Source: a virus. From it: a DNA stretch of 57,662 nucleotides. The translations under genes and the position numbers were made by a program. Position 1 is the stretch's first letter; every line of letters starts with the position of its first letter. The notes under the pieces were generated by a model. The model was not told where the DNA came from and did no database searches. It saw only the letters and a list, made by a program, of their open reading frames with translations. Shown here one piece after another: positions 20,568-53,224 of the stretch. Where the stretch lies: positions 1-57,662 of the IMG/VR virus record IMGVR_UViG_3300031364_000002; one strand, written 5' to 3'.

Positions 20568-22070
20568 TTACCAACTGTACAATAATTTTGGATCGTACTC
20601 AGCCACCCCACTATGCTCATACACTCCTGTTAAACAATCCGGAGCGTCGTCATGATCATTGGCTCGAAATAATCGCTTGAAATAAAGGAGGGCTGTAGCA
20701 AACTCTGGCCATCGGCTTACCCAATTTATAGGAAATAAAATATTTCTCTGAACTGCTGGTGAATTTGTTAAAATTCGGGATTCTTTATTTCCTCCCTGAA
20801 AAAACCAATTAATGACAATTTTTCCCTTAGTTAACCTATCCACAGCTCGGGCAAATCCACGCCCACCATTATTACTTTCAACATCCCCCTCCTTAACCTT
20901 CCATTTGATCAAAATCTGAGCAAGCTCTGGCTCTGTTATCTCCTGGGGTTCTTGGGTGTAATACACCTCAAGCACATACACCACTCCATCAAGTCCCACT
21001 CCATAAATAATTGCACATAGGAAATCTTTTCCGGTATCAGCAGTATCTACATAAAATGATAATTTTTTAAACTTCGGAATTTCCGTATAAGTGCTAAAAT
21101 GGGAATACAACAACCCCTCAAGTGGACGGGGATCCCCCTGATATAAACTCCCAAACTTTTCAGGATCTCTTTCCCGAGCTCTTTCCAGATCCTTCAATCG
21201 GTGCATCTCTGGCCAAAGTGCCTCTCCAGCCTTTCTGGGATCTATAATACTCGGGGGGCCTGTTTTAATAGCCTCAAAATTAATTTTGTACCAAGCATCT
21301 TCCTCCGGGCTATCCAACTGACGTAAATCCTCAATAGGAATAATAGTTTCCTTCCCAGAGAGATACCCCACAAGATCCCCTGCATTCCACCTGGTAAATA
21401 CTATTAGCTGTTTTGAATTATTATGTAGACGAGTAGTCACCACAGATTCGTACCAATCTATTACTGCAGCACGAACCACAGGACTATTACCCTCAGCATA
21501 ATCTTTATACAAATCATCAAGGTCTGCAAAATCAACTTTATCCCCTGTAAGTGGACCACCTCTACCCACAGCTTTAAAACTTCCGCCATGATCCACAATC
21601 TCAAACTCTTCCGTATTCCTCAAATAATTGCCCTCTGCTGTATAAGCCACCCTGGATCTATTGAGTTTTGTCATAGGAAAAATTTTCCGGTATTCTTTTG
21701 TGTCGATAATTCGCTGCACTACCCGATTAAATTTACGAGCAAAAGTGGCTGAATAAGAGCACAAAGCAATTTTCAACTCTGGATCCTTACCTAACATGTA
21801 GGATGGGAGACGCCTAGATGACCCCTCACTTTTACCATGCTGTGGGGGCATAGTAACTATCAATTTAGTTAAATTTCCTTCAGCAAATTTTTGTAGTATG
21901 GAATAATAAACTTGGTGAAACCAAGCAGGTTTAAAAGCTGGAAAAGTGTAATGGGTGAAATCAAGCAGATACCGTCGAGATAGAATTATCCGAGCAATAT
22001 CTGGATCAGGATTCAGGGCATCTACTTGCCTTGATAATTGCTCTGAGTGCTTTGTCCGATAGGTGCTCAT
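20568..22070 (-). CDS. terL: Terminase large subunit
   Basis: The protein has 500 residues and is the ATP-driven DNA packaging motor and nuclease. The Walker A-like motif is MPPQHGKS (residues 74-81), the acidic Walker B region is near residue 180 (KVDFADLDDLY), and the C-terminal RNase H-like nuclease begins at YVDTADTGKD (about 345). The start overlaps the small terminase gene by 65 bases, so the genes are coupled. The packaging mode (headful or cos) cannot be decided, although the circular assembly would fit headful packaging. Confidence 0.95.
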   Translation of the reverse strand: MSTYRTKHSEQLSRQVDALNPDPDIARIILSRRYLLDFTHYTFPAFKPAWFHQVYYSILQKFAEGNLTKLIVTMPPQHGKSEGSSRRLPSYMLGKDPELKIALCSYSATFARKFNRVVQRIIDTKEYRKIFPMTKLNRSRVAYTAEGNYLRNTEEFEIVDHGGSFKAVGRGGPLTGDKVDFADLDDLYKDYAEGNSPVVRAAVIDWYESVVTTRLHNNSKQLIVFTRWNAGDLVGYLSGKETIIPIEDLRQLDSPEEDAWYKINFEAIKTGPPSIIDPRKAGEALWPEMHRLKDLERARERDPEKFGSLYQGDPRPLEGLLYSHFSTYTEIPKFKKLSFYVDTADTGKDFLCAIIYGVGLDGVVYVLEVYYTQEPQEITEPELAQILIKWKVKEGDVESNNGGRGFARAVDRLTKGKIVINWFFQGGNKESRILTNSPAVQRNILFPINWVSRWPEFATALLYFKRLFRANDHDDAPDCLTGVYEHSGVAEYDPKLLYSW

Positions 22071-31297: not shown

Positions 31298-32916
31298 GTT
31301 ATTATACTCCAGTTGTGAAAACAGTCTCTTTACAGGCAGAAACTACAGAATTAATAATCCAGTGGAAATGTATGGACTCAAAAATATTTTTTAAAATTAA
31401 GAGCCAGGTTGAGTCAGTTCCGGGAGTGTACTGGGATGGTAGCAAAAATTGGTATGCCCCAGATACAATTCAAAACAGAGAACTACTTAAACGATTTGGC
31501 TTTCTGCTCCCTGTTGGTTATAACAAAAATTGGGTGCCCCCTTGGAAAGGAAAAATCATTCCAAAGGAAATTTCTGAACCTCTTAGAACATATCAAGTTG
31601 AGGGGGTTCAGTTTATTGATTACTTACAAGGAAAAGGGTTACTGGCTGATGACATGGGTCTGGGAAAAACTGTCCAGTCCTTGTCCTATCTCCGATTACA
31701 TCCAGAATTTAGCAGAGTGCTAATTATTACTGAAGCCTCACTAAAACTCCAATGGAGGGAAGAGGTGAAAAAATGGGGGGAAAGAACACCTATTATTTTG
31801 TTCGGAAAAACCCCTTATGAATTACCAGAGGGAATTTTTATCATAAATTGGGATGTTATCCACGATTGGGAGTTAGAGTTAATACAAAATCCTTGGGATT
31901 TTATAATTGGAGATGAAATACAAGCTATTGGAAATATGAAATCTCTTAGGAGCCGGACATTTATGAAATTAGCCCGGAGAAATTCCAGGGTTTTGGGGAT
32001 GTCAGGTACTCCCTTTAATAGTAAAACAGTAAGGTTTTATCCAATTTTGTCCATTTTGGATCACAGGCATTTTTATAGTTCCTGGAATTTTAAGCAGCGA
32101 TATTGTGATCCAAAATATACCCCTTTTGGATTGACTTTTGACGGAGCTTCTAACACAGAAGAATTAAGAGCTCTCATTCAACCAATTATGTTGAGACGCA
32201 CAAAAAAAGAGGTAGCAAAGGATCTTCCAAGAAAGATTAGAATTGCACTACCTTTAGAAATTAAGGATATTGAAAAATACAAAGAGGCGGAGAAAGCTGT
32301 TTTTGGATCTATATCAGATTTTTCAGATAATATTCGGGATAAAGAATTGGCTGATCTTCAATATTCAGCTTTTCAGTACAAAAAAGATGTGATGATTAAA
32401 TGGATCCAAGAATTTTTGGACAAAGATCAAAAGCTGATCTGCTTTGCATTTCATCGGAAAGTAGTGGAGTATGTTCATGAGAAATTTAAAAAAAATTCAG
32501 TGATGATTTATGGAGGTATATCCACGGGAGAGAGGCAAAAAAGAATAGATAAATTTATGAATTCTTCCTCCACAAATTTATTGATAGGTAATTTTCGCTC
32601 GGCTGGAATAGGTCTAAATTTGACAGCAGCTACCGCCGTTTGCTTTTTGGAGTTGAGTAGCCAACCTGAAATACATATGCAATGTGAAGACAGAATTTGC
32701 CGGATTGGTAGCACTTTTGATCGAGTGTTTGCTTACTATCCTTTTGTAGCTGGAACCATAGAGGAAGAGTGGGTAAAAGTGTTGGATAACAGAATGAAAA
32801 ACTATAATAGAATTATGGAGGGCCGGGAAACTCGTCGGTCTGAAATGATAAGAGAAATAATTAAGCATGCACGGAGAAAACATGAAGCTCACCTCAAAGA
32901 AAATTTATCTGAATGA
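31294..32916 (+). CDS. SNF2-family helicase / translocase
   Basis: The protein has 540 residues. The N-terminal ~90 look like a HARP domain (WKCMDSKIFFKIKSQVESVPGVYWDGSKNWY), as in SMARCAL1-type fork-remodelling enzymes. The SF2 motor follows: Walker A at DDMGLGKT (119-126), GDEIQAIG (motif II), MSGTPFN (III), and the C-terminal motifs GGISTGERQ, FRSAGIGLNLTAAT and QCEDRICRIGS. Such enzymes in phages probably help fork restart or recombination. It overlaps the primase gene. Confidence 0.85.
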   Translation: MSYYTPVVKTVSLQAETTELIIQWKCMDSKIFFKIKSQVESVPGVYWDGSKNWYAPDTIQNRELLKRFGFLLPVGYNKNWVPPWKGKIIPKEISEPLRTYQVEGVQFIDYLQGKGLLADDMGLGKTVQSLSYLRLHPEFSRVLIITEASLKLQWREEVKKWGERTPIILFGKTPYELPEGIFIINWDVIHDWELELIQNPWDFIIGDEIQAIGNMKSLRSRTFMKLARRNSRVLGMSGTPFNSKTVRFYPILSILDHRHFYSSWNFKQRYCDPKYTPFGLTFDGASNTEELRALIQPIMLRRTKKEVAKDLPRKIRIALPLEIKDIEKYKEAEKAVFGSISDFSDNIRDKELADLQYSAFQYKKDVMIKWIQEFLDKDQKLICFAFHRKVVEYVHEKFKKNSVMIYGGISTGERQKRIDKFMNSSSTNLLIGNFRSAGIGLNLTAATAVCFLELSSQPEIHMQCEDRICRIGSTFDRVFAYYPFVAGTIEEEWVKVLDNRMKNYNRIMEGRETRRSEMIREIIKHARRKHEAHLKENLSE

Positions 32917-34279
32917 AGAATTACAGGTCTTGACCTGGTGTATAGTCAGTACAGAATTACTCCAACAGATTCATCTTGTAGGCAATCCAGAATTATTTGA
33001 GTCCACATATTCTCAGTTGGTAGCAGGGTGGGTGTGGAATTATTTCAAAATAGCAAAAGAATCCCCAGGAAGAGAAGTCCAAAAAATTTATTTGCGGGAG
33101 AGGAAAAACATAAAAGATGAGGAAGATTTGGAACTTATTGGGGAATTTCTTACCAATCTTTCAAAAACCTGGGAAAAAACATCTGTTTTTAATTTACCTT
33201 TTGCTACGTCTCAATCTATTGAATATTTTAAAAAACGGTCACTTCAGCGATTAAGTGAAAAATTAGAGGTAGCGCTTGAGTCGGGAGATGTGAGATATGC
33301 AGAATCTCTTGTTGGAGGGTTTAAGCGGGTTGAACGTCCCTCCGGGGAAGCCGTTCAGATATTGAGAGACTCAACAAAAGTGATAGAGGCTTTTACCCTG
33401 ACTGATGAAATTATGTTTAGTTTTCCTGGGGATCTTGGAAAAACCGTGGGGCCTATCGTACGTGGAGATTTTGTAGCAGTTCTTGGGGCTATGGGCCGTG
33501 GAAAATCCTGGTGGTTGCTTTATTTTGCAGTTCAGGCCTCTATCATGGGATTTAAAAGCATATTTTATTCATTGGAAATGACGGAACCACAGGTGGTTAG
33601 ACGGGCCTGGCAGATGATTCAGGGGGTAGGGAGATATGAAAATACTGTAAATTATCCTCATTTTGTGGAAGGGGAAGAAGAAGGAAAGTGGGAGATAGAG
33701 CATGAAGAGAAAAAAATTAATTCTATTGATGTAAATTCTGTTGAGGGAATAATGAAAAAAATGAGGCTTAGTTTGAGAGGAGCAGATTTGCGAATTGAAA
33801 CAATGCCTTCTATGACTGCTTCTCTTGCTGATATTGAAAATTCTTTAACAAATTTGGAAGTGTATGAAAATTTTGTACCGGATATTATTGTAATAGATTA
33901 TGCAGATATTATTGTCCCGGAACGGTATAACCGGGAAAATCGACAAGAGATAGATTTAATATGGAAAACGCTTCGGGGGTGGGCTCAAAAAAGAAATTGT
34001 TCTGTCATCACTGGAAGTCAAACTAACAGGGAAGCTCTCGATAGAGATGCCAAAGGGAAAAATATTGCAGAGGACATACGAAAATTAGGGCATGTTAGTA
34101 AAATGATAGCCTTGAATCAAACAGAAAAAGAGTATGAGGCAAATATCATGAGAGTAAGCTCTTTGAAAGAGCGGGATAAACGCCGGTGGATATCTCAAGC
34201 CTGTGTTTTACAGTGTTTAGATATTGGACGCCCTTATTTAGATAGTCGAATGGTAGGGGATGTGGAATATGAACGTTAA
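32882..34279 (+). CDS. Replicative DnaB-like helicase
   Basis: The protein has about 465 residues. The N-terminal helical domain is followed by a RecA-type core with Walker A (GAMGRGKS, about 205), the ATP-site region after a large acidic insertion (GEEEGKWEIEHEEKK), Walker B (IIVIDYADII, about 340) and VITGSQTNREALDRDAKGK. The start at ATG 32882 has CGGAG upstream, inside the previous gene's end. It is the fork helicase of this replication module. Confidence 0.85.
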   Translation: MKLTSKKIYLNEELQVLTWCIVSTELLQQIHLVGNPELFESTYSQLVAGWVWNYFKIAKESPGREVQKIYLRERKNIKDEEDLELIGEFLTNLSKTWEKTSVFNLPFATSQSIEYFKKRSLQRLSEKLEVALESGDVRYAESLVGGFKRVERPSGEAVQILRDSTKVIEAFTLTDEIMFSFPGDLGKTVGPIVRGDFVAVLGAMGRGKSWWLLYFAVQASIMGFKSIFYSLEMTEPQVVRRAWQMIQGVGRYENTVNYPHFVEGEEEGKWEIEHEEKKINSIDVNSVEGIMKKMRLSLRGADLRIETMPSMTASLADIENSLTNLEVYENFVPDIIVIDYADIIVPERYNRENRQEIDLIWKTLRGWAQKRNCSVITGSQTNREALDRDAKGKNIAEDIRKLGHVSKMIALNQTEKEYEANIMRVSSLKERDKRRWISQACVLQCLDIGRPYLDSRMVGDVEYER

Positions 34280-34305: not shown

Positions 34306-35127
34306 ATGATAACAATTTCAGGCACTCCTTGGGAAAAACACGATGGGATTTGGGTAAAAAGAGAGGATTTGTGCAGCCCTTATCCTGGGCCCTCATTTTC
34401 CAAAATTAGAGGGGTAGAGCAACATATAATAAAATTGATGAATTCCTCATTTCCTCCCACCTCTATTGGAGTTGTGGATTCTCGACACAGTAAGGCTGGG
34501 TGGGGAGTTAGCTATATTTGTCAACTTATGAAAATTCCGGTTACTGTATTTTACCCTATCCTGAAAGGGGAAACAGAATTAAGACCATTTCAAAAAATGT
34601 GTGATAAATTAGATGCTGGATTGGTAGGGTTACCAGCTACTAAAAGTGCAGTGTTGTTTTATCAGGCTCGCAAACTATTTCAAAATTGGGATTCTTATGG
34701 GTATCTAATGCCAAATGGATTGAAATTAAGAGAATCTGTTTTAAGTACTGAAAAAGAATTGTTAAATTACACTCCAGAAAATTTATTGAGAGGAACCTGG
34801 ATTATTTCAATATCCTCCGGGACAATTGCTGCAGGAGTGCTTTCTGGGTTGACAAAATTTAAATTTAAGGGTAAAATTTATCTCCATATGGGTTATAGTC
34901 GTAGCAAAAAAGCTGTTAAGAATTATTTAAATTCTATTGGGCATAATCTACAATGTGAAGATTTAGATTTAGAGCTTATTGATGAGGGATATAATTACAA
35001 GGATCGGGTAGATAATAAATGTCCTTTTGCATGCAATCCTTATTATGATCTTAAGGCATGGAAATGGGTTACAAAATATAGAAATAAATTTGAGTCCCCA
35101 ATAGTATTTTGGAATATAGGTAGTTGA
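34306..35127 (+). CDS. PLP-dependent fold-type II enzyme
   Basis: A protein of 273 residues. It resembles the tryptophan synthase beta / ACC deaminase group: WVKREDLCS, then SFSKIRGV with probable PLP-binding Lys33, and SISSGTIAAGVLSGL (about 165-180) as the phosphate-binding Ser/Gly loop. It is shorter than typical family members (about 330), with an unusual Cys-containing end (NKCPFACNPYYDLKAW). Substrate is unknown; amino-acid elimination, replacement or ligand-transfer chemistry is possible. It leads a cluster with two radical SAM enzymes. Confidence 0.75.
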   Translation: MITISGTPWEKHDGIWVKREDLCSPYPGPSFSKIRGVEQHIIKLMNSSFPPTSIGVVDSRHSKAGWGVSYICQLMKIPVTVFYPILKGETELRPFQKMCDKLDAGLVGLPATKSAVLFYQARKLFQNWDSYGYLMPNGLKLRESVLSTEKELLNYTPENLLRGTWIISISSGTIAAGVLSGLTKFKFKGKIYLHMGYSRSKKAVKNYLNSIGHNLQCEDLDLELIDEGYNYKDRVDNKCPFACNPYYDLKAWKWVTKYRNKFESPIVFWNIGS

Positions 35128-35128
35128 A

Positions 35129-36184
35129 ATGAAAAGATTGAAAACAGGATTGAGTATTAGGGGAGATAGTTATTATTGTCCACTTTCTTTTCAACTTGAT
35201 ACCTACTGGAATTGTACCAATAAGTGTGAGCACTGTTATTTACGTCGTTTGAATAGAACCTGGGGGGAGGATTTACGACCTTTAGATTTAAAAGAATTCC
35301 ACAAAAAAATTGTTAATGGAATGAAAAACTCTAATCCAAAAACCTCATTGGGATGGGCTATTAAACAAAAGAAAACAATCCGGTTAGGAAACAAAACTGA
35401 TCCTTATCAACCAGCAGAAGAGGAATTTGAGGTTACAAAACAAGTTATAAAATTGTTATTACACTACAACTTTTCTTTTGTAATCCAGACAAAATTTACA
35501 GAGCTTGTTAATCGGGATTTAGAGATATTGAAAAAAAAGCCAGATTGGGTATCTGTTATGCCTATAATCACTCCAGGATTAGAAAGGGATTGGGAGTTAT
35601 TCGAGCATGGAACCACAACTAATCCTATAGAGCGTTTAAAACACTGTCAAACCTATATGAAAAACAATATAAACGTGGGGGTAAACGGAGAGCCTTTTAT
35701 TCCCGGTTATCATACAATTCAAAATTTTAGAGATACTATGAAAGTGTTGAAACAATATAACATAAAAAGTTATAATACTTACCATCTACATTTTAATGAT
35801 CTTGTAGCTAAAAACTTCCTAAGAATTGGGTTGGATATTGAAAAAATCTGGTATATGAATCAGGACATTCAATGGAAAGCAATTTTGAGGAAATTGATAA
35901 ATATCGCTGCTGAATATGATATAATATTGGGTTGTCCAGACTTTGTAAATTCTGGAGGTTATCAAGAAACTGTGAATACGTGTTGTGGTTTATCAGTCCC
36001 GAACCCTTGTACTTTCAATGTAATTCAATGGAAGAAATTATTTATAGCGGGGAAGACTTCAAAGGAGATTGTGGAGAAAACCTATGACCACATTGGTAGT
36101 AAAGAAGATGCCTTGGGTATAATAGAGGGGACTACTAAGAATTTCTATACATTGAAAGACATAGATCTAAAGGAAAAGATATGA
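35129..36184 (+). CDS. Radical SAM protein 1, COG1533 / SPL-like
   Basis: A protein of 351 residues. The radical SAM [4Fe-4S] motif is Cys29-x3-Cys33-x2-Cys36 (WNCTNKCEHCYL). LGNKTDPYQPAEEEFEVTKQVI is characteristic of the COG1533 group, to which spore photoproduct lyase-like proteins belong. The barrel continues to about 250. Additional Cys residues occur near the C-terminus (GCPD, TCCG, PCTF) and may bind a second cluster. The group acts on nucleic acids or other targets; the substrate here is unknown. The next gene overlaps its stop. Confidence 0.8.
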   Translation: MKRLKTGLSIRGDSYYCPLSFQLDTYWNCTNKCEHCYLRRLNRTWGEDLRPLDLKEFHKKIVNGMKNSNPKTSLGWAIKQKKTIRLGNKTDPYQPAEEEFEVTKQVIKLLLHYNFSFVIQTKFTELVNRDLEILKKKPDWVSVMPIITPGLERDWELFEHGTTTNPIERLKHCQTYMKNNINVGVNGEPFIPGYHTIQNFRDTMKVLKQYNIKSYNTYHLHFNDLVAKNFLRIGLDIEKIWYMNQDIQWKAILRKLINIAAEYDIILGCPDFVNSGGYQETVNTCCGLSVPNPCTFNVIQWKKLFIAGKTSKEIVEKTYDHIGSKEDALGIIEGTTKNFYTLKDIDLKEKI

Positions 36185-36918
36185 ATAATTTATTAAAAAT
36201 TACTTATGATAATGATTTAGTTTTGAATATTCCAAAATTGGAAAATTTAAATCAACAAATATCAGCTAACATAGGTCAAGTGTTTTTTATCAAATCTCAT
36301 AATTCTGATATCAGAAAAGAAATGGGGGCTCTAAAAGCAATGAGTATTTACCTGAAAAATAATGGATTTTCATTAAAAGAAAAAACATTTATGGATGTTA
36401 TGGCTGGTTGCGGATTTTCTGGTAGAATATTTAACAAATATCTTTTTCCTGAAAAAATAATACTCAATGATTTAGATTCAACTTGTGTTTCTATTTTGAG
36501 AGAAAATTATACTGACAAAGAAATCACTAACCAGAATATTTTTGATATAGATTTTCAGGGCATAATTCCATTTATAGATTTCAATAATTTTACAATTAAA
36601 AAAAGTTTATTCTGGGAATCTGTATTTGCCCACATTAAAACAGATTGGGCTTTGTATACAGATAGTGCCTGTTATGGATTTGGAATGGGTAATTTGAAAA
36701 GTTATGGAGTTGAAACAGAAATAGAATATTATGAAAAATGTGTCAATCCATTTATATCCAAATATGGATTTTACGTACAAGCTATTTGTAATTTTGGTCA
36801 TGCTTCTGTGATATTGATTACAAAAACAAAATTAAGTAAAATTGATATAATACCTACATTAAACATAACCTGGAAAACAGAAGAAATTAAAACATCTATA
36901 TTTTGGGAATTATTGTAA
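36181..36918 (+). CDS. Rossmann-fold methyltransferase-like protein
   Basis: The protein has 245 residues. The SAM-binding motif is FMDVMAGCGFSGRIF (70-84), followed by an acidic strand end (ILNDLDSTC). In the place of the catalytic NPPY/DPPY motif it has YTDSACYGFGMG (about 158-169), which differs from known DNA methylases. It could methylate or otherwise modify a base or an intermediate, or use the fold for a non-methyl transfer. It overlaps radical SAM gene 1 by four bases and lies just before radical SAM gene 2. Confidence 0.65.
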   Translation: MNNLLKITYDNDLVLNIPKLENLNQQISANIGQVFFIKSHNSDIRKEMGALKAMSIYLKNNGFSLKEKTFMDVMAGCGFSGRIFNKYLFPEKIILNDLDSTCVSILRENYTDKEITNQNIFDIDFQGIIPFIDFNNFTIKKSLFWESVFAHIKTDWALYTDSACYGFGMGNLKSYGVETEIEYYEKCVNPFISKYGFYVQAICNFGHASVILITKTKLSKIDIIPTLNITWKTEEIKTSIFWELL

Positions 36919-36929
36919 GGAGGTCAGAT

Positions 36930-38330
36930 TTGGATTATTGGGATTATAGAAAAGAAGCAAGTAAATTAATTCCCCGTTTGGCTTTGTTGCCTAGCAAGGA
37001 TCACTACCATCAAAAAGAAAAAGGAAGAAAGAGTAACTATAAGCAATTTGATATTCACCAAAAAAAGCTGGTTAAAATAGAAAGATTGCTAGATACAGAA
37101 AATATCAATAGTTTTTTAGAGGTATCTTTAAGAGCACAAAGTTGCCCAATGCCTCTCAATGCAGATGTTTGGGACGGATTGAGATGTCCTTTTGCATGCA
37201 AATATTGTTATGCAGATTATTTCAAACATTCTTTGTACACTTCCTTTTTTGATAATGGAAAAGAAATTGGAGTTCGACATTGTAAATCTGAAGTATGGAA
37301 GGGACAACTTGATGGGTTATTTCCTCACCGGGGAGAGCCTACTTCTGGTGAAAATTCAGTATTAAATGCAATAAGAATTGGCATCCCAATACGATTAGGA
37401 ATTAGATATGAAGATTTCATTCCATCCGAAAAAAAGTATGGAATTTCTCTAGAATTGTTAAAATATTTAGCAAAAGCATCCTATCCCACCATGATAAATA
37501 CTAAAAGTGCACTTGTAGGAGAGTCAGAATATGTAGATGCTCTATCCTCAAATCCGGCAGGGGCTGCTGTTCATATAACTATGATTTCTTCAGATGAAGA
37601 ATTAATTCACGCTATAGAACCAGGGGCTCCATCTTTTAAGGATAGGTTAATAGCAGCAAAAAATTTAATTCAAGCGGGAGTTCGGGTAGTAGCTCGAATT
37701 GAGCCCTGGATGTTATTTATCAATGATGAAAAGAGCAGAGTGCAGGAATATATTGGATTGATCAAGAGTGCAGGAATTCAACACTTAACTTTTGATTCAT
37801 ATTCTTATTCAGCTTATTCCAAAGGACTAGCTGAAAATTTTAAGCAGATAGGATTCGATTTTGAAAGGATGTTTTTGCTTAGTGCAGATAGTCAGTGGCT
37901 TTCCTCTTTTCTGCTCGGAAAATTTATGAAAGAATTTCAAAAAGAAGGATTGAATTGTAGTACTTTTGATCAGGGAAATGTACCTGTCAACAATGACTGG
38001 ATTTGTTGTTCCGTTGGGGATTATTTTAAAACAGGATTTAATTGGGGGTCTGGAGTAATTGCTATAAAGTTCATACAGTCCAGAAATGGGTTACCAACCA
38101 GGTGGAGTGATTTTGAAGAATTTGTTGTAAAAAAGGGAGGGTGGTTATCCTCCTCATTAAAAAAAGAAGTACAAATGCTTTGGAATGGGCAAGGAAATGC
38201 TGCCTGGCCTATATATTGGGGGCAAGGAATCGTTCCGGCTGGTCAGGATGAAAATGGAATAGTTTGGAAGTTTAACAAACAAGATGATTTTAGAAGTGAA
38301 TATTGGAGGTTTTTAACTTATGACAATTGA
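36930..38330 (+). CDS. Radical SAM protein 2, COG1533-related
   Basis: A protein of about 466 residues. The cluster motif is Cys86-x3-Cys90-x2-Cys93 (LRCPFACKYCYADYF). Barrel features follow: IRLGIRYEDFIPSEKKYG, YPTMINTKSAL, AVHITMISSDEELIHAIEPGAPSFKDRLIAAKNL and RIEPWM. The C-terminal 150 residues include a Cys cluster (DWICCSVGDYF). TTG 36930 is chosen because AAGGAGG lies six bases upstream; the reading frame is open from 36903. It is longer than radical SAM 1 and probably acts on a different substrate or step. Confidence 0.75.
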   Translation: MDYWDYRKEASKLIPRLALLPSKDHYHQKEKGRKSNYKQFDIHQKKLVKIERLLDTENINSFLEVSLRAQSCPMPLNADVWDGLRCPFACKYCYADYFKHSLYTSFFDNGKEIGVRHCKSEVWKGQLDGLFPHRGEPTSGENSVLNAIRIGIPIRLGIRYEDFIPSEKKYGISLELLKYLAKASYPTMINTKSALVGESEYVDALSSNPAGAAVHITMISSDEELIHAIEPGAPSFKDRLIAAKNLIQAGVRVVARIEPWMLFINDEKSRVQEYIGLIKSAGIQHLTFDSYSYSAYSKGLAENFKQIGFDFERMFLLSADSQWLSSFLLGKFMKEFQKEGLNCSTFDQGNVPVNNDWICCSVGDYFKTGFNWGSGVIAIKFIQSRNGLPTRWSDFEEFVVKKGGWLSSSLKKEVQMLWNGQGNAAWPIYWGQGIVPAGQDENGIVWKFNKQDDFRSEYWRFLTYDN

Positions 38331-39042
38331 TGCTACTACAGAAAGAGTGTTTTCTCAAGCAGTTGCTTTGGCTCAACAAGGCAGAATGAAAAGTTCAATC
38401 CATGTAGGGTTTCACGAAGTGTATATTTTAAATATGGATAACACAATTTTAATCCAAAATAAAATTCTTCAAGAGTTTGATCTGCCTTTTAGTTTCTATG
38501 CCAATGATTATGAAAGCAAGCATTTACGTTTGGATAGGGAAAACCATGTAATTTTTTTGTCCAATTCTGGTGGATATAAAAGAAAGAAAACTGTACCTGC
38601 ACCCAAAATGGATTTTGGTCAAATATCCAGAGATTGGATGGGATATCCTGATATTAAAAAAGATTATTCAATTACCTTATCTGATTCAGCTATTTCTCTG
38701 TTGGATGATAATTTGTCCCATGTGGAATTTCATAAAATTGAGTCTGATTCTATTGTGATGGTTCAAAAAGATATTTACTCAGGTGCCCGAATTGAAATTC
38801 AAGAATTGTCTTCTGGATTTAAGATTGAACTTGGTAATCAAAATTTTGAGTTAAATCCAATAGGAATTAGAACTGTAGATTTGAAAGCTCTTTATTTGTT
38901 TGATTCCACCTATACTTTTTATTTCCAGCCAGGCCAAAATTATGTATATTTAGAGGGTAGTGGAGGAAATATCAAAGTAATTTTGGCTACCTGCTTGTAT
39001 GATGAAATTTCCTATTTGGCCAAGGTAAAAGGAGATAAATGA
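38320..39042 (+). CDS. Possible sliding-clamp-like protein
   Basis: A protein of 240 residues made of alternating beta strands with short helices. Segments such as HVEFHKIESDSIVMVQKDIYSGARIEIQEL and FYFQPGQNYVYLEG...IKVILATCLYDEISYL resemble the repeated half-domains of PCNA/beta-type clamps. A second protein with clamp-like features is coded at 39939. It may tether cluster enzymes to DNA or be a clamp paralogue, but this is structural inference. It overlaps the radical SAM 2 gene by 11 bases, with GGAGG upstream. Confidence 0.4.
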   Translation: MTIDATTERVFSQAVALAQQGRMKSSIHVGFHEVYILNMDNTILIQNKILQEFDLPFSFYANDYESKHLRLDRENHVIFLSNSGGYKRKKTVPAPKMDFGQISRDWMGYPDIKKDYSITLSDSAISLLDDNLSHVEFHKIESDSIVMVQKDIYSGARIEIQELSSGFKIELGNQNFELNPIGIRTVDLKALYLFDSTYTFYFQPGQNYVYLEGSGGNIKVILATCLYDEISYLAKVKGDK

Positions 39043-39043
39043 A

Positions 39044-39190
39044 ATGGGGGGAAAAAGTCGGAAAACAGGTCAAATTAGTAAACAACTAATTGATAGATTG
39101 TTAAATCAATCGGGGAAATCTTGTGGAGGAGGAGCTAAAAAAGATAAAGAAGAAAAAGATCCCTTTCATTTGATGGAAAGTAAAAAATGA
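39044..39190 (+). CDS. Small basic protein (48 aa)
   Basis: A 48-residue protein starting MGGKSRKTGQISKQLIDRLLNQ with a Gly/Lys-rich middle (SGKSCGGGAKKDKEEK) and ending DPFHLMESKK. GGAG lies upstream and the stop overlaps the next start (ATGA). It may be a DNA-binding or peptide partner in the modification cluster. No family is recognised. Confidence 0.55.
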   Translation: MGGKSRKTGQISKQLIDRLLNQSGKSCGGGAKKDKEEKDPFHLMESKK

Positions 39191-39942
39191 GTGAAGTTAA
39201 TTTTTGGAAATACTTTACTTCTCATTCCATTTATCCCAATTTTTATTGCTCACCAGAGTATTGGAAAAAAGGAAAATTTAAAATTGTAGATACCCCGAAC
39301 CTGTTTGAGGTAAGATCCCAGGAAGGATGGTTACTAATTCCTAGATTTGAAAAGGAAATATTTAATTTTTCAGAACCTTTTTATGCTGGATTTTCAGGAT
39401 TTTACTGTGGAAAATTTTTGGATTATCAATTCATATATGATCCCAAAAATTTTAGGGAATTATCGGGAGGAGAATGGAGAAAAATTCGTCACAATTTGAC
39501 AATAAGCAAAAGGGAACTAAATGAATCTTTAGGAATTGTGCTAACAGGTAGGAATTGCAGTTTATCTTCTTTTAAAGATTTTATGTTAACCTGGCAAAAT
39601 TTAAAACAGGAGTCTGAATTATATGATCCAGAAATTATGGTAAAATTTCTGATAAACGGGGATCATCGGTTATTGTTTATGGGTTTGGATAGCAAAAAAA
39701 TCTATGGAATAGCTGTTTTTGATCTAACTCCAATTTTTATCAACTTTAGGTATTGCGAAGTTTTACCTGGAATTACTGGTTTGAGTGATTATTGCCGGGT
39801 AGAATTTTACCAATGGATAGATAAACATTATCCGAATAAATTGGTAAACGATGGGGGGAGTTTGGATAAACCCTCTCTGTATAAATATAAACAATTTTTG
39901 AATCCCATGAGTGTATCTAAAATAAGGAGTTTGTTAAAATGA
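39187..39942 (+). CDS. GNAT-fold, DUF2156 / FemAB-like acyl- or aminoacyltransferase
   Basis: A protein of 251 residues. The C-terminal half fits the DUF2156 / lysyl-phosphatidylglycerol-synthase-C type of GNAT fold: GIVLTGRNCSLSSFKDFMLTWQNL, a central strand block (FMGLDSKKIYGIAVFDL), and VNDGGSLDKPSLYKYKQFLNP, similar to the N...L....L...K....P ending of the family. Such enzymes transfer aminoacyl groups from aminoacyl-tRNA or acyl groups from CoA. In this DNA-linked cluster, transfer to a modified base is an attractive but untested idea. It overlaps both neighbours by four bases. Confidence 0.6.
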   Translation: MSEVNFWKYFTSHSIYPNFYCSPEYWKKGKFKIVDTPNLFEVRSQEGWLLIPRFEKEIFNFSEPFYAGFSGFYCGKFLDYQFIYDPKNFRELSGGEWRKIRHNLTISKRELNESLGIVLTGRNCSLSSFKDFMLTWQNLKQESELYDPEIMVKFLINGDHRLLFMGLDSKKIYGIAVFDLTPIFINFRYCEVLPGITGLSDYCRVEFYQWIDKHYPNKLVNDGGSLDKPSLYKYKQFLNPMSVSKIRSLLK

Positions 39943-41003
39943 ATATTAACAGGGTAGATTTAGTAAACAAATTGAAACAGTGTATGCCTGGTATTGAAAC
40001 AGGCAACAGCCTGTTGGAGGGGGCAGATACTTTTTATTTTGAAGGTAAGAGAATTCATACTTTTAATGACATAATAAGTGTATCTGTAGATATATCAGGA
40101 ATTGTATCTGGAGATTTAACTGGATCTGTAAGTGCTAAAGAATTTTATAAAATATTGACTAAATTCAGGGAGAGTGATATCACAATAGATCCTGAAGATA
40201 AACAATGGATTTTACGTAGTGGAAAAGCAAAAAGTACATTGAAATTTAGAGAATCTGTTATTTCAAATATGGTGGCAGAACTCAAATTGGATAAATTGAC
40301 CTGGAAAAATTTACCTGATAATTTTCTGGATGGACTAAAGCTGTGTAGAATTCCAGGGAATCACACAGCATTTAATGGAGTAGCAGTGGATAGGAATGGG
40401 ATGTACTCCACTGATAAAATAAGAGTAAACAAATTCAATCTATCAAATGATATGGAACGGTTTTGGATAGAAGAAAAGGCTCATGGGGAAATTCTAAAGT
40501 TTGATGAGATGAAAGAATACAGTCTCAGTGATTTCTGGATTCATTTTAGATCAACTGCTGGGGATTGTTTTTCTGTTAGGAGAAAAAGAGATACAGAAAA
40601 AGGAATTTGCAGATATCCTTTTACTCAAATAGATACTATAGTTTTTAGGGCCTCCGAAAACAGACAAGAAATTGGTACTGATTTACCACAAGAATTGGAG
40701 GAAGTACTATCCAGAGCATCAGTATTTTCTTCAGATTTTGATGGGCATTCCGTAGTTCATTTGGTTTTGTCTGGTAAATTTATTGAATGCTCTTCAAGCA
40801 AAACAAGTGGATCCTACTCAGAAAAAATTAAGTGGAAAGCAGATTTTAAAGAGGAATATCAAATGGATTTGGCAGCTGGATTTCTTTTTGAGTCTCTTAA
40901 ATTATCCCCCAAATTTTCTGTGGCAAATATAGGAGATTCTCAATCCCTAGTATTTTTTGGAGATAATTTTATTCATGTAATGGCCCTCATAAAGTCAGAG
41001 TAA
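39939..41003 (+). CDS. DNA polymerase sliding clamp, DnaN-like
   Basis: A protein of 354 residues, close to the length of bacterial beta clamps. The pattern of three repeated domains is suggested by ADTFYFEGKRIHTFNDIISVSVDI, SAKEFYKILTKF, then NHTAFNGVAVDRNGMYSTDKIRVNKF and the final FLFESLKLSPKFSVANIGDSQSLVFFGDNFIHVMALI. The clamp encircles DNA and raises polymerase processivity. The clamp loader gene is at 43989. It lies immediately before the polymerase gene. Confidence 0.75.
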   Translation: MNINRVDLVNKLKQCMPGIETGNSLLEGADTFYFEGKRIHTFNDIISVSVDISGIVSGDLTGSVSAKEFYKILTKFRESDITIDPEDKQWILRSGKAKSTLKFRESVISNMVAELKLDKLTWKNLPDNFLDGLKLCRIPGNHTAFNGVAVDRNGMYSTDKIRVNKFNLSNDMERFWIEEKAHGEILKFDEMKEYSLSDFWIHFRSTAGDCFSVRRKRDTEKGICRYPFTQIDTIVFRASENRQEIGTDLPQELEEVLSRASVFSSDFDGHSVVHLVLSGKFIECSSSKTSGSYSEKIKWKADFKEEYQMDLAAGFLFESLKLSPKFSVANIGDSQSLVFFGDNFIHVMALIKSE

Positions 41004-41007
41004 AAAA

Positions 41008-43542
41008 ATGGAAGGATTTATGGATTTAGGCCTGGGGGAGCAAAAATCCAGGCCCCACTATAAAAAACAAGGCTCAGGATGTGATGGGTGTGGTTTATAT
41101 AGGTACTGCCAATCTCCACAAATGCCCCCAACAGGTAAGGGAAAAAAGAGAATTCTCATTGTGGGGGAAGCTCCAGGGAAGATGGAAGACCAAAAGGGAA
41201 TTCAATTTATAGGAAAATCTGGTTATCTCCTTCGTGAGACTCTCTCAAATTTAGGATACGATTTGGAGAGGGATTGCTGGAAAACAAATGCACTTCTCTG
41301 CCAACCTCCGGAGAATAGGGATCCTACTCCTTTTGAGCTCAATGAATGTAAAAAGTTTCTTCATTCTCTGATTAAATCCAAACAACCAGACATAATAATT
41401 CCTATGGGTAAATTTGCTCTAAATGCTTTAATTGGTCATAGAATTACTGGGAGGCTGAAGGGAACTAAATTCTCCAAATTTGTAGGAACCCAAATCCCGG
41501 ATCAGGAATTAGGGGTTTATATATGCCCAGTAAATCATCCCGCTTATATCCTCCGTAATGAGAGGGATACAGTAATTTGTCAAAATTGGAAAGCTCAGAT
41601 AAAAAGTGCTTTTGAATTATCAGGTAGTAGACCAGAAATTGTTGACTATTTTTCCAAGGTAGTAATAACAACAGATCCAGACAAAGCAATAGAATGGATT
41701 AGTTTTATAAAACAGAACTGGAAAAAGTTTGCTTTTGACTATGAAACCACAGGAAGGAAACCTCAAAGGGAAGGTCATAAAATCTGGACTACATCTGTAT
41801 CTAATGGAAAAGTGGCTTATGCCTGGCCTATGTATAAGGCCCAAGAAAAATTGAAAAGAGCTTGGATTGATCTTTTAGAATCTGATGTAGGACTTATTGC
41901 CCATCATACTCAGTTTGAGCATATTTGGTCCCGGGTAATTCTTGATGCTCATCCAAATAATTGGATCTGGGATACCATGACTGGGGCTCATATGGAGTAT
42001 AATAAACGTCCAAACAATTTAAAATTTAGGACATATGAGAATTTTGGGGTTATTGGGTATGATGACGAAATAAATCAATTTTTGAGTAAACCAAAACCAG
42101 GGGAGGATCCTAAATCAGCAAATTCTTTCAATCGGATTGATGAAGCACCTCTTCCAGATTTACTAACCTACAATGCTCTTGACTCTCTGTTTACCTACAA
42201 ATTGTATCTGAAACAAAGCAGAATTCTCGATGGAAAAAGAAGGGCTGCAGCTGACTTCTTTTTTTCCGGAGGAATTGAATTGGCAAATACTCATATAAAC
42301 GGAATAAAAGTTAAAGATTCTCTATTGAATCATCATATAAATCGATTAACTACCAAAAAGGATGAGCTTTACAATAAAATTTTTGAATTCCCAGAGGCAA
42401 AAAAAGCAGGGAGGAAATTTAAACCAACAAGCAATCCAGAATTGAATCGATTATTATACAATACTTTGGGGTACAAAGGAACTGGAGTGGATGACAAGGC
42501 ACTGACTGCTATTGGTACACCCTTTGTAAAGAGTATTTTGGAGTACAGAAAAACAGCAAAATTAGTGGATACGTATCTTGATGGATTTAGACGGGAGGTT
42601 GTAGACGGATTTATTCACCCTTATTTCAATCTAAATACTGTTGATACTTTTCGCTCCTCTTCAGATACTCCAAATTTTCAAAATATACCAAAAAGGGATA
42701 AAAAGGCAATGAAAATTGTCCGTTCTTTTTTGATCCCCAATAATGGGAGAATTATTGAATATGATTACAAGGCCCTTGAGGTAGTTATAGCTGGTTGTGT
42801 TTACAAGGATCCTAATTGGTTGTCTTATTGTAGAGACACTTCCAAAGATATGCACCGTGATACTGCCATCGAAATTTTGTATTATCAAGGATTATGGGAT
42901 AAATTGGAGCCCTCAATAGCAAAAACCTGTCGGCAGGCCTCAAAAAATGGTTATGTTTTCCCATCAATTTATGGATCATCAGGAGAAAATGCAGCTTACG
43001 GGATGTGGGAACAGCTACCAGAAGAGACAAAAAAGCATTTAAAAAAACATGGGATTTATGGAGTACAGGATTTTGTTAATAGAATGATTGAGTATGAAGA
43101 TGAATATTGGAACAAACGATATCCAGTATATGGCCACCGGCGGAATGAGGCCTATAAATTATATGAGAAAAAAGGATATGTTGATACTGTTACTGGTTTT
43201 AGATGTTATGGGCCTCTCGATTTCACTCAGGTGGTAAATTACAAAGTTCAGGGCCCCGCTTCTCATGTAAAATTATGGACCATGGATAAGGTAAGTAAGC
43301 AGTTGAGAGCAGAAGGAATGAAAAGTTATCCCCTGGGGGAAATTCATGATGCTATTCTTTTTAATACAAATTCAGATGAAGAGGAAAAACTTGATCAGAT
43401 TGTTTGGAGATTTGGGACTCAGGAAGTAAGAGAAGAGTGGAAATGGATTATAGCCCCTTTATTATTAGAAAAAGACAGGAGTGAAATTAATGGCCGTTGG
43501 TCAGATATGGAAAGCTGTGGGTATTTGGAGGGAAAACAATGA
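41008..43542 (+). CDS. Uracil-DNA glycosylase / family A DNA polymerase fusion
   Basis: The protein has 844 residues. The N-terminal 200 form a family 4-type iron-sulfur uracil-DNA glycosylase: CDGCGLYRYC, LIVGEAPGKMEDQKGIQFIGKSGYLL, NALLCQPPENRDP and PVNHPAYILRN. Residues about 230-400 form a 3'-5' exonuclease (FAFDYETTGRKP, HHTQFEHIW, YNALDSLFTYKLY). From 430 the family A polymerase follows: SSDTPNFQNIPKRD, IIEYDYKALEV, and GEIHDAILFN near 785. The domains would edit uracil during replication. Confidence 0.85.
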   Translation: MEGFMDLGLGEQKSRPHYKKQGSGCDGCGLYRYCQSPQMPPTGKGKKRILIVGEAPGKMEDQKGIQFIGKSGYLLRETLSNLGYDLERDCWKTNALLCQPPENRDPTPFELNECKKFLHSLIKSKQPDIIIPMGKFALNALIGHRITGRLKGTKFSKFVGTQIPDQELGVYICPVNHPAYILRNERDTVICQNWKAQIKSAFELSGSRPEIVDYFSKVVITTDPDKAIEWISFIKQNWKKFAFDYETTGRKPQREGHKIWTTSVSNGKVAYAWPMYKAQEKLKRAWIDLLESDVGLIAHHTQFEHIWSRVILDAHPNNWIWDTMTGAHMEYNKRPNNLKFRTYENFGVIGYDDEINQFLSKPKPGEDPKSANSFNRIDEAPLPDLLTYNALDSLFTYKLYLKQSRILDGKRRAAADFFFSGGIELANTHINGIKVKDSLLNHHINRLTTKKDELYNKIFEFPEAKKAGRKFKPTSNPELNRLLYNTLGYKGTGVDDKALTAIGTPFVKSILEYRKTAKLVDTYLDGFRREVVDGFIHPYFNLNTVDTFRSSSDTPNFQNIPKRDKKAMKIVRSFLIPNNGRIIEYDYKALEVVIAGCVYKDPNWLSYCRDTSKDMHRDTAIEILYYQGLWDKLEPSIAKTCRQASKNGYVFPSIYGSSGENAAYGMWEQLPEETKKHLKKHGIYGVQDFVNRMIEYEDEYWNKRYPVYGHRRNEAYKLYEKKGYVDTVTGFRCYGPLDFTQVVNYKVQGPASHVKLWTMDKVSKQLRAEGMKSYPLGEIHDAILFNTNSDEEEKLDQIVWRFGTQEVREEWKWIIAPLLLEKDRSEINGRWSDMESCGYLEGKQ

Positions 43543-44941: not shown

Positions 44942-45415
44942 ATGAGTTTTGAAGATGATGTAAAAATTAACAAATACAAATTGGATGTAGCCTGTGAGGA
45001 ACAACCTTGTCTTATACTCTCCTATGAGGAGCCATTAGCCAGTTTGAAGGGGGATAGGGACAGGCTTTATGATCGTCTTAATCTGGTAACTGCTGAGTTG
45101 GAATTGGAAATTAGAAAAAATCCGCCTGAAGGGGTAAAACTCACAGAAGGGACAGTAAAATCTTTGGTTTTATCCTCTCCTAGAGTAACCAAAATTCAAA
45201 CAAAACTTAATGAAACAAAAAAAGAAATTTATCAGTATGAAGCTGCTGTAAATGCTTTTGAACACAGGAAGCGGATGCTTGATAATTTAGTAAAACTATG
45301 GACCTCAAATTATTACTCTGACCCTGACCGGTATGTATCCCCATCGGATGAAGCCGGTAAAGATATAAGGGGAAATCTCAACAAGGAAAGAAGGCAGGAG
45401 GAAAAAAATGCCTAA
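44942..45415 (+). CDS. Coiled-coil protein, possible recombination mediator
   Basis: A protein of 157 residues, mostly charged and helical (DRDRLYDRLNLVTAELELEI, TKLNETKKEIYQYEAAVNAFEHRKRMLDNLVKLWTSNYYSDP). The end of this helix resembles those of small phage proteins coded before SSB, some of which may act as recombination or helicase mediators (UvsY-like). That assignment is inference from context. It overlaps the SSB gene by eight bases. Confidence 0.5.
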   Translation: MSFEDDVKINKYKLDVACEEQPCLILSYEEPLASLKGDRDRLYDRLNLVTAELELEIRKNPPEGVKLTEGTVKSLVLSSPRVTKIQTKLNETKKEIYQYEAAVNAFEHRKRMLDNLVKLWTSNYYSDPDRYVSPSDEAGKDIRGNLNKERRQEEKNA

Positions 45416-46571
45416 AACAAAAAAGCGGCGGGTTTCATCAGCCCGGTATGATGAATCCTACAACACAAGAAACAAAGGGGGATTTGACAGACCGGATATT
45501 ATTGATTGGAAAAAGGTAGCTGATGCCTTGGGAGTGGATTCCATAAAGTTCATGGAATTCAAAAAAGGCCCTAATCGAGTCAACATTATCCCGTTTGAAG
45601 TAAAAACAAAAAATCACCCTCTTGTCCACAGTGGAAATTTGGAGGTAGGGGATCTTGATTATGGACTGGATATTTGGGTTCATAGGAGCATCGGGGAAAG
45701 TGAAGGGGATTATATTTGCCTCAAACAGAATTTTGGAAAAAGATGCCCTATATGTGAAGCAGCAAATGCTGCCTATAAAGCCAAAAATACTGATATGGGA
45801 AAAGCACTCAAGGCAAGCCGGAGGATGTATTACAATGTCCAGATAATAGACCACGGAGAGGCAAAAGATTCTTTGGAAGTGCTCAGAACTAGTCATTTCT
45901 TTTTTGAAAAAGAGCTGATTGAGGAAGCTACAGAGATGGGAGATGGAAAAGCCCCTGTAGATTTTGCTGATATTGAAAACGGAAAAATGATCAAGTTCCG
46001 GGGATCGCAGGAAAAATTCAACGGACAGGAATTCATTAAACCTAAAGCTTTTTCTTTGGTGGAACGGGAAGAAGAGTTGGAGGAGGGTATCATTGATGAA
46101 GCTGTAAGTTTTGATCAATTTCTGATTATTCCTACAGTTGAAGAACTGGAAAAAGTTCTCCATGGGCTCCCTGAAGAAGAGGAGTACGATGATGATGAGG
46201 AGGAGGAAGAAGAAAAAGAAAAATCATCTAAAAAGTCTCACAAAACAGAAGTTGAGGAGGAAGAGGAAGAAGAAGAGGAAGAAGAAGAGGAAGAAGAAGA
46301 GGAAGAAGAAGAGGAAGAAGAAGAGGAAGAAGAAGAGGAAGAAGAGAAGTCCTCTATCCCAAAAAAGAAATCCAAACCCAAACCTAAGAAAGAAGAAGAA
46401 CCAGAAGAGGAAGAGGAAGAGGAAGAAAAATCCTCCAAAAAACCTACCTCTAAGAGCAAGTCCAGTAAGGGTAAATGCCCACATGGGCATAACTATGGGG
46501 AAGATGCTGATAATTTCGATGATTGTGAAAAGTGTGATCTTTTTGATGATTGTTGGGATTATGCGGAATAA
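45408..46571 (+). CDS. Single-stranded DNA-binding protein with zinc site and long Glu tail
   Basis: The protein has 387 residues. The N-terminal half contains a gp32-type OB-fold core with a zinc-like site (CLKQNFGKRCPICEAANAAY, about 104-123). From about residue 253 the tail is almost all Glu (DNA repeat at 46254-46348), interrupted by Ser/Lys-rich blocks. The last 30 residues hold several Cys/His (KCPHGHNY, DCEKCDLFDDCWDY). The acidic tail probably binds partner proteins, as in gp32 and SSB. The N-terminus is basic. Confidence 0.7.
   Translation: MPKTKKRRVSSARYDESYNTRNKGGFDRPDIIDWKKVADALGVDSIKFMEFKKGPNRVNIIPFEVKTKNHPLVHSGNLEVGDLDYGLDIWVHRSIGESEGDYICLKQNFGKRCPICEAANAAYKAKNTDMGKALKASRRMYYNVQIIDHGEAKDSLEVLRTSHFFFEKELIEEATEMGDGKAPVDFADIENGKMIKFRGSQEKFNGQEFIKPKAFSLVEREEELEEGIIDEAVSFDQFLIIPTVEELEKVLHGLPEEEEYDDDEEEEEEKEKSSKKSHKTEVEEEEEEEEEEEEEEEEEEEEEEEEEEEEEEEKSSIPKKKSKPKPKKEEEPEEEEEEEEKSSKKPTSKSKSSKGKCPHGHNYGEDADNFDDCEKCDLFDDCWDYAE
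46254..46348 (+). repeat. Glu-coding microsatellite in the SSB gene
   Basis: A run of about eight imperfect copies of a 12-base unit (GAGGAAGAAGAA type) that encodes only Glu. Replication slippage could change its length between phage particles without a frame shift, since all steps are multiples of three. Long ORFs on the opposite strand and in other frames here are shadows. Confidence 0.8.
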
Positions 46572-52205: not shown

Positions 52206-52436
52206 ATGATAAAGAAAACAAAGAAGATAAGCCTAAATGAAGACATGCTAGAAGTATTTATTGCTTATTCAGACTCCAAAAGAATAACTCTCAGCCAGTT
52301 TGCTGAATCTGCCATGGCAGGAGAAATTAGGCGGCGATGTAAAGAAAAAAAGAAATGGATTAAAGCCTTGGAACTAGCTGAGGAAGCGGCTTTGGATTCT
52401 CTTGTAGATCGGCTAAAAGAGAGAAGAAAAATTTGA
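52206..52436 (+). CDS. Ribbon-helix-helix-like DNA-binding protein (76 aa)
   Basis: A protein of 76 residues: a basic strand (KKTKKISLNEDML) followed by two helices (EVFIAYSDSKRITLSQFAESAMAGEIRRR), an Arc/MetJ-like arrangement. It may be a transcription regulator of the neighbouring methyltransferase or of the phage. A further helix carries many charged residues. It overlaps the methyltransferase start (TTGA). Confidence 0.55.
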   Translation: MIKKTKKISLNEDMLEVFIAYSDSKRITLSQFAESAMAGEIRRRCKEKKKWIKALELAEEAALDSLVDRLKERRKI

Positions 52437-53128
52437 ATAATAAGATTAATGTTGTTCACTTGATTGATAATCTCCTATTTATGAAAAACTTGGAAACTAA
52501 TGCTTTCGATTTGGTTTTGGCAGATCCCTGGTATGGAATTGGTATGTTAAAAAATGATAATACTGGATTTGCCAAAAGGAGACACCATCAGATATTAGCC
52601 AAAGGAGTAGACGATAGTGCCTTTCAAGATAATATTCCTCCTGAAGAATTTTTTACCGAATTAAAAAGAGTATCAAAATATCAAATTATTTGGGGTGGGA
52701 ATTATTTTGGGGACTATCTTGGAAAATGTGTTGCTCCTATCATATGGGACAAGGGAACTGGAAAAAATTATTTTGCTGACGGGGAAATGGCTTGGACTTC
52801 CTTTCTGGATGGGTGCTTAAGAATATTTCATCATCAGTGGTGTGGTTTTTATAAAGAATCCGAACAGGGAGTAAAAACCATACACCCCTGTCAGAAACCA
52901 ATAGAATTGTATCATTGGATATTTAAAAAATTTAGTAAAAGATACCATATTAAATCTGTTTTTGATCCCGGAGTAGGGTCTGGTTCATCCCGAATTGCGG
53001 CTTATGACTATCAATTGGATTATACAGGTTGTGAAATAATTCCGTCAACGTGGAAAGCCCAGGAAGAGCGTTTTAAAACCTATATCAAAACAAATCCATT
53101 TAATCTTTCTTATCCAGATAAATTATAA
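52433..53128 (+). CDS. DNA methyltransferase (N6-adenine or N4-cytosine type)
   Basis: A protein of 231 residues. The catalytic motif is ADPWYGIG (about 34-41; DPPY-like). The later block FDPGVGSGSSRIAAYDYQLDYTGCEI (about 182-207) is the SAM-binding FxGxG site, so the catalytic motif comes first, as in beta-class enzymes. It probably protects phage DNA from restriction or marks it. The start is TTG 52433, overlapping the previous stop. No restriction partner is seen. Confidence 0.75.
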   Translation: MNNKINVVHLIDNLLFMKNLETNAFDLVLADPWYGIGMLKNDNTGFAKRRHHQILAKGVDDSAFQDNIPPEEFFTELKRVSKYQIIWGGNYFGDYLGKCVAPIIWDKGTGKNYFADGEMAWTSFLDGCLRIFHHQWCGFYKESEQGVKTIHPCQKPIELYHWIFKKFSKRYHIKSVFDPGVGSGSSRIAAYDYQLDYTGCEIIPSTWKAQEERFKTYIKTNPFNLSYPDKL

Positions 53129-53224
53129 TTTTTTTTAAAAATAGTCAAATATTCTCTTGCTTTTTATTTAGAGTAGGTATATAATACCTATATAAGGTTA
53201 AGGAAAAGGAGATTAGAGATGACA
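53124..53224 (+). promoter_or_regulatory. Promoter element B, copy 2
   Basis: Identical over 101 bases to the reverse complement of 27446-27546. On the plus strand it has TTGCTT (53157-53162), a 17-bp spacer, TATAAT (53180-53185), the dyad TAGGTA-N5-TACCTA (53174-53190) across the -10, an AAAGGAGATTAGAG ribosome site and the first codons of the ParB-like gene. It begins the second small-gene cassette. Confidence 0.9.

Follow-up and report, generated by a model that had tools for sequence, protein, structure and literature searches.

The seven genes between the helicase and clamp genes of the viral record IMGVR_UViG_3300031364_000002 (IMG/VR; 57,662 bp, linear, possibly lacking an end; hereafter the window) raise the question of what a phage would make with a pyridoxal phosphate (PLP) enzyme, two radical S-adenosylmethionine (SAM) enzymes and a DUF2156-like transferase inside its replisome operon. 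We consider it likely that they carry out a post-replicative, replisome-coupled and clamp-tethered hypermodification of DNA bases that is independent of 5-hydroxymethyluracil.

In order, the genes encode the PLP enzyme, a first radical SAM protein (rSAM1), a methyltransferase-fold protein (MTL), a second radical SAM protein (rSAM2), a second sliding-clamp-like protein (clampL), a 48-residue basic protein and the transferase (D2156). All lie on the plus strand and overlap or are separated by about one base (Table 1). An earlier note, made from the bare DNA, had named this set and its location, and all seven genes are present as it stated. Its assignments also hold: the PLP fold-type II enzyme is recognized by Pfam PALP and phrog_7093, both COG1533-type radical SAM enzymes match NCBIfam models and keep the CX3CX2C motif, and the methyltransferase-like protein with an altered motif is a Rossmann methyltransferase by profile. 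For the clamp-like and DUF2156-like proteins the predicted folds match PCNA (by Foldseek) and the DUF2156/MprF/FemX group respectively. Since the same gene order recurs in 63 distinct IMG/VR contigs, collected by scans with rSAM1, rSAM2 and clampL profiles (the lineage), the cluster is real, far beyond chance.

Kinship of the PLP enzyme with phage M6

The PLP enzyme, in which conservation across homologues points to Lys33 as the probable Schiff-base lysine and to SSGT171-173 as the phosphate loop, is 44% identical over 99% of the sequence to gp52 of Pseudomonas phage M6. By tblastn it is 43.7-44.6% identical, again over 99%, to the enzymes of Yuavirus and Vojvodinavirus, and 66 phage records were matched, mostly Pseudomonas Yuavirus and Bordetella phages. 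M6 DNA carries 5-(2-aminoethyl)deoxyuridine (5-NedU), which arises from 5-hydroxymethyldeoxyuridine (5hmdU) after kinase action (PMC6449724). The M6 locus runs from gp51, an amino acid:DNA transferase (ADDT), through gp52 and the COG1533 radical SAM protein gp53 to the 5hmdU kinase gp54; gp55 is a kinase helical-domain protein and gp58 an enzyme of the thymidylate synthase (TS) family. In 2022 Lee and co-workers reportedly described gp53 as a radical SAM isomerase and gp52 as a PLP decarboxylase acting on glycine-derived thymidine. Nearly all the PLP-bearing loci that we examined outside the window lineage also hold an ADDT and a gp53-type radical SAM gene. Besides ADDT, loci of the M6 type have a 5hmdU kinase gene and often one for a TS-type enzyme; the counts for M6-like loci come from six-frame searches, because a simple gene caller misses genes in these GC-rich loci.

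In the unrooted PLP tree the enzymes of the window and of loci L004, L005 and L006 stand among the M6-like enzymes with support of 100/100, and 26 other lineage enzymes form a group of their own, apart from them. On identity and tree grouping the window enzyme is a predicted M6-type thymidine-hypermodification enzyme. The PLP gene precedes rSAM1 in these four loci and follows it in the others listed. This agreement of tree and gene position indicates that the PLP gene has probably moved between the M6-type and window-type systems at least once. Such a transfer suggests a shared kind of intermediate, and both systems probably arrive at much the same type of amino-acid nucleoside. In four loci (L009:8298-9659, L010:6032-7279, L011:1255-2745 and L014:5374-6795) an additional rSAM2-like radical SAM gene lies near an M6-like ADDT-PLP-gp53 cluster; these clusters are possible intermediates between the two types.

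Absence of known precursor enzymes

Such kinship would also fit a conventional pathway, in which host enzymes, genes off the contig or unrecognized analogues make and activate 5hmdU, and the radical SAM and PLP proteins, homologous to gp53 and gp52, finish the base as in M6. The window is a linear contig, which leaves room for this. Profile searches for the enzymes concerned argue in the other direction. Neither ADDT (PF18724) nor the 5hmdU DNA kinase (PF18748) was found in any of 49 lineage records, the Tet_JBP dioxygenase (PF12851) was found in none of 15, and TS (PF00303) was lacking from 19 of 21; the M6 and L012 controls were positive for ADDT and kinase, and M6 also for PF00303. The TGT/DpdA transglycosylase (PF01702), the mark of a Dpd-type 7-deazaguanine system, was found in none of 18 records. 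The window itself, searched over the whole record, has none of these five families, in agreement with the earlier note, which had remarked on the lack of hydroxymethylase, kinase and 7-deazaguanine genes. The two TS-positive records, one of them with the gene in the operon (L027), speak for the conventional pathway, but the match in L027 covers the full length with a very strong score, as an ordinary TS would. Several of the searched records are 60-170 kb long, so simple truncation is unlikely to lie behind all the absences. We regard the conventional pathway as unlikely.

The window cluster shares with the M6/YuA-like pathway a 44%-identical PLP enzyme beside a COG1533-type radical SAM protein, and MTL homologues occur in some M6-like loci. 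It differs in that searches of the window detected neither ADDT nor 5hmdU kinase nor a TS-type enzyme, in the addition of a second, distinct radical SAM protein, D2156, a second clamp and the small basic protein, and in being embedded between DnaB and the clamp and PolA genes. The earlier idea of a post-replicative route without hydroxymethylase or kinase gains support from the M6-type PLP enzyme, the gp53-homologous radical SAM proteins, the occurrence of MTL homologues in M6-like clusters and next to CmoA, and these absences.

A conserved core and an exchangeable cassette

Across the lineage the usual order is DnaB, a K-rich protein (u0, not always present), rSAM1, a cassette, rSAM2, clampL, the small protein, D2156, clamp and PolA. 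The core, within the replisome operon, consists of the two radical SAM proteins, clampL, the small protein (which begins MGGKSRK) and D2156, the last found in 50 of the 63 contigs. In 43 complete regions the cassette holds PLP 21 times, MTL 16 times and an aldo/keto reductase (AKR) 11 times; a single region has both PLP and AKR (Fisher p=0.004, without correction for ancestry). The cassette can also contain a DAO-type flavoprotein, a second GNAT-like protein, DUF362 or CmoA. TET-associated DNA glycosyltransferases (TAGT, PF20691) are present in L028, L035, L044 and, below the cut-off, L008. Exchange of this kind is reminiscent of the varied end products of DNA-hypermodification clusters.

Three of the PF20691 genes lie in or next to the cluster (L008:11409-12227, L044 at G009:C1:12034-12624 and L028 at G025:C1:16755-17351). 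Of these three records, L008 and L044 were searched for TET/JBP genes, and neither yielded one. In L107 (16019-16930) D2156 is followed by a 303-residue GNAT-like protein for which NCBIfam gave just a sub-threshold XF1762 match, and which we take to look like Mom of phage Mu.

The radical SAM pair

The closest NCBIfam models of rSAM1, rSAM2 and M6 gp53 are all COG1533-type PA0069 and Rv2578c radical SAM proteins, and both window proteins score far below the cut-offs of these families. Alignment with hhalign relates rSAM1 to rSAM2 (E=6e-20) and each to the gp53 family (E=3e-12 and E=3e-11 respectively), as homologous but divergent proteins. The radical SAM motif is C29-x3-C33-x2-C36 in rSAM1, with C17, C269, C285 and C286 also invariant (54 homologues), and C95-x3-C99-x2-C102 in rSAM2, with C81, C352, C368 and C369 (48 homologues; numbered from 36903). 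These extra residues could be ligands of a second iron-sulphur cluster. The alignment with gp53 pairs only part of the late rSAM1 cysteines, and in it NTCCG of rSAM1 stands opposite DQCHG. The pair resembles spore photoproduct lyase and the PA0069/Rv2578c proteins in sequence family and CX3CX2C motif, but differs in the extra invariant cysteines before and after that motif and in that two paired paralogues share one operon. The true start of rSAM2 is likely the TTG at 36930, because a Shine-Dalgarno-like AAGGAGGT lies upstream and the homologues start with MNYWDYRK there.

Profile searches of the PDB with rSAM1 and rSAM2 gave nothing useful. Scanning the genome collection with rSAM2 returned just three short contigs from metagenome-assembled genomes, labelled with three phyla, and no host was assigned. 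In L007 one residue is deleted within the rSAM1 cysteine motif, and in L028, L033 and L128 a DUF362 protein and a second rSAM2-like enzyme take the place of rSAM1.

The methyltransferase-fold protein and CmoA

Profile comparison of MTL gave a match to Mtf1 (E=3e-5), and a 20-member alignment has DFxxFT, more exactly DF(N/D)xFT, after strand beta4 where DPPY would be expected. MTL carries DFNNFT/DSACYGF and no SPPC, and so differs from C5-methyltransferases of the CmoX type; this check covered MTL but not every other gene of the window. MTL homologues adjoin the PLP gene in the M6-like loci L012 and L018, and an MTL scan of the collection found just two loci, both already known.

CmoA (TIGR00740) occurs in only two of 50 lineage records, L079 and L141, where it overlaps the MTL gene, and was not found in the window. 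Its homologues (L079:7448-8161 and L141:6216-6935, the latter with E=3e-40 to TIGR00740) lie between rSAM1 and PLP. We assign MTL of these two loci to a CmoA-associated transferase family and not to the C5-methyltransferases. Phage CmoA supplies carboxy-SAM (Cx-SAM) for DNA carboxymethylation, and the paper that describes this reported no candidate carboxymethyltransferases of the N6/N4 type beside it (PMC12783734). The CmoA-CmoX-CmoY system of Synechococcus phage S-B43, which makes 5-carboxymethylcytosine (PMC12783734), is comparable in that CmoA adjoins a methyltransferase-fold gene in L079 and L141, and the common theme would be a carbon handle put on after replication. The window differs from it, having neither CmoA nor an MTL that is a C5-methyltransferase with SPPC.

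The second clamp, the small basic protein and the transferase

The AlphaFold model of clampL (predicted local distance difference test, pLDDT, 90.5) matches PCNA in Foldseek (E=2.6e-9, probability 1.00, TM-score ~0.56), which places the predicted structure in the sliding-clamp fold; a PDB profile search with clampL gave nothing useful. The gene is present in 53 of the 63 contigs, and the ten without it are fragments of at most 10.7 kb. The small protein accompanies D2156 in 48 of the 50 loci that have the latter, nearly always adjoining it. Its N-terminus is near-invariant (MGGKSRK.G.VS..LI) and its C-terminal half variable. A C-terminal LF/LLD-type motif ends 10 of 18 small proteins (background 1%) and 10 of 19 MTL proteins (background 6%). 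These tails resemble clamp-binding peptides and suggest that both proteins are tethered to a clamp; for the small protein we propose the role of a clamp adaptor.

D2156, also modelled with high confidence (pLDDT 93.4), has 2HQY (E=1e-8), MprF, the A-PGS/L-PGS synthases, FemX and Sbb17 as its top Foldseek matches, which places the predicted structure in the GNAT-like FemX/LPG-synthase fold. A hidden Markov model match to 2HQY (E=5e-4) agrees with this. D2156 is thus like the FemX, MprF (LPG synthase) and DUF2156 transferases in predicted fold and in the 2HQY sequence match, and unlike them in being a short single protein within a phage replisome operon. Characterized members of this group are mostly aminoacyl-tRNA-dependent, and D2156 may use an aminoacyl-tRNA as donor.

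A small protein encoded next to radical SAM genes, conserved at its N-terminus and variable behind it, brings to mind the precursor of a ribosomally synthesized and post-translationally modified peptide (RiPP), and the small-molecule enzyme Sbb17 among the D2156 matches would suit such a pathway, in which the radical SAM proteins, PLP and the FemX-fold transferase process the 48-residue protein or make a metabolite. The conserved part is, however, the basic N-terminus, and the tail often ends in the clamp-binding-like motif. The position between two clamps and PolA does not vary, PLP and MTL are shared with DNA-hypermodification loci, and CmoA and TAGT genes co-occur with the cluster. We judge a peptide or small-molecule product very unlikely. 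As to the 48-residue protein itself, the lack of conserved modifiable core residues in its tail rules against the RiPP reading. Modification of RNA, such as tRNA, instead of DNA would be in keeping with the RNA-modification relatives of CmoA and of the flavoprotein (weak MnmC similarity) and with a transferase fold that binds tRNA. It is hard to reconcile with a replisome operon that has a dedicated clamp, with a PLP partner known from DNA hypermodification and with the lack of tRNA genes in the window, and we hold it to be highly improbable.

A proposed pathway for base hypermodification

DNA is the expected target on account of the fixed place among the replisome genes together with a dedicated clamp, the M6-type PLP enzyme, the presence of MTL in M6-like loci, the overlap of MTL with CmoA in two loci and the clamp-binding-like tails of MTL and the small protein, and modification of virion DNA is the most likely function of the cluster. 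Thymine is most likely the target base, because the PLP enzyme is of M6 type; cytosine is possible. For the clamp tethering, the order of steps, the product and its protective role we infer the following scheme. ClampL would ride the newly made duplex and, with the MGGKSRK protein as adaptor, concentrate the enzymes on DNA. The two radical SAM proteins would form or rearrange a substituent joined to the base through carbon, most likely at C5 or the 5-methyl group of thymine, and D2156 would deliver an aminoacyl group from aminoacyl-tRNA, in place of the ADDT of M6, which uses the free amino acid. PLP could then decarboxylate the amino-acid adduct, the reaction proposed for its M6 counterpart. 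With SAM or Cx-SAM as donor, MTL could attach one carbon or a carboxymethyl group. The outcome would be a base of the aminoalkyl type that shields the DNA from restriction. In phages with AKR, reduction of a carbonyl might yield an alcohol open to decoration by a glycosyltransferase. The full combination, a radical SAM start on a normal base, an amino acid from aminoacyl-tRNA, a dedicated second clamp with adaptor and swappable finishing enzymes whose end products differ by phage, is put forward tentatively.

Several points weigh against the proposed route. The records are linear metagenomic contigs, and the absences are therefore statistical. The target base is not fixed by sequence, the clamp-binding-like motif is found in only about half of the MTL and small-protein sequences, and the fold of D2156 serves lipids, peptides and small molecules too. 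Among 50,697 phage records (INPHARED) rSAM2, clampL and D2156 had no match and rSAM1 just weak partial ones; this set holds no cultured relative.

Layout and other genes of the window

Table 1. Genes of the cluster and its replisome context in the window
Feature	Position	Strand	Evidence
DnaB-like replicative helicase (context)	32867..34279	+	Pfam DnaB_C, phrog_19
PLP fold-type II enzyme	34306..35127	+	Pfam PALP E=4e-6, phrog_7093 E=5e-61
rSAM1, COG1533/PA0069-type radical SAM	35129..36184	+	NCBIfam E=1e-17
MTL, methyltransferase-fold protein	36181..36918	+	20-member alignment; PDB profile matches to SAM methyltransferases
rSAM2, COG1533/PA0069-type radical SAM	36930..38330 (reading frame open from 36903)	+	NCBIfam E=1e-11
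clampL, second sliding-clamp-fold protein (predicted)	38320..39042	+	AlphaFold, Foldseek to PCNA
48-aa basic protein, MGGKSRKTGQISKQLI... start	39044..39190	+	conserved adjoining D2156
D2156, DUF2156/FemX/MprF-fold transferase (predicted)	39187..39942	+	AlphaFold, Foldseek, HMM match to 2HQY
Replicative sliding clamp (context)	39939..41003	+	phrog_947 DNA polymerase processivity factor E=1.5e-12
Family A DNA polymerase, PolA (context)	41008..43542	+	tblastn to phage DNA polymerase I

Away from the cluster, the window encodes an N6/N4-type DNA methylase (52433-53128; Pfam N6_N4_Mtase E=2e-5, just under the cut-off) and a small ParB-like protein (53219-53527) with a ALDGCHRLRAAQ motif recognized by eye; ParBc proteins have been reported near phage CmoX genes. 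A gp32-like single-strand binding protein (45408-46571) has a very long poly-glutamate stretch ahead of its C-terminus. The large terminase (20568-22070) is closest, at 44-50%, to those of Porphyromonas, Parabacteroides, Bacteroides and Elizabethkingia phages, a hint of a Bacteroidota host.

Implications

No published description of this gene set was found in the literature covered, which left out subscription journals. To our knowledge, the known amino-acid-derived thymine hypermodifications have 5-hydroxymethyluracil as an intermediate, and the recently reported carboxymethylcytosine depends on a C5-methyltransferase. A route independent of both, with radical SAM enzymes and a tRNA-dependent-transferase fold on a dedicated clamp, would open a third way into elaborate DNA chemistry, and radical SAM chemistry that starts on an unmodified base would be a new means of entry. 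The M6-shared PLP enzyme points to a concrete product class that is testable by liquid chromatography-mass spectrometry (LC-MS). If the proposal is correct, the system has a wide distribution (63 contigs) although the searched GenBank phages lack it, and its modularity would allow different bases to be predicted from gene content.

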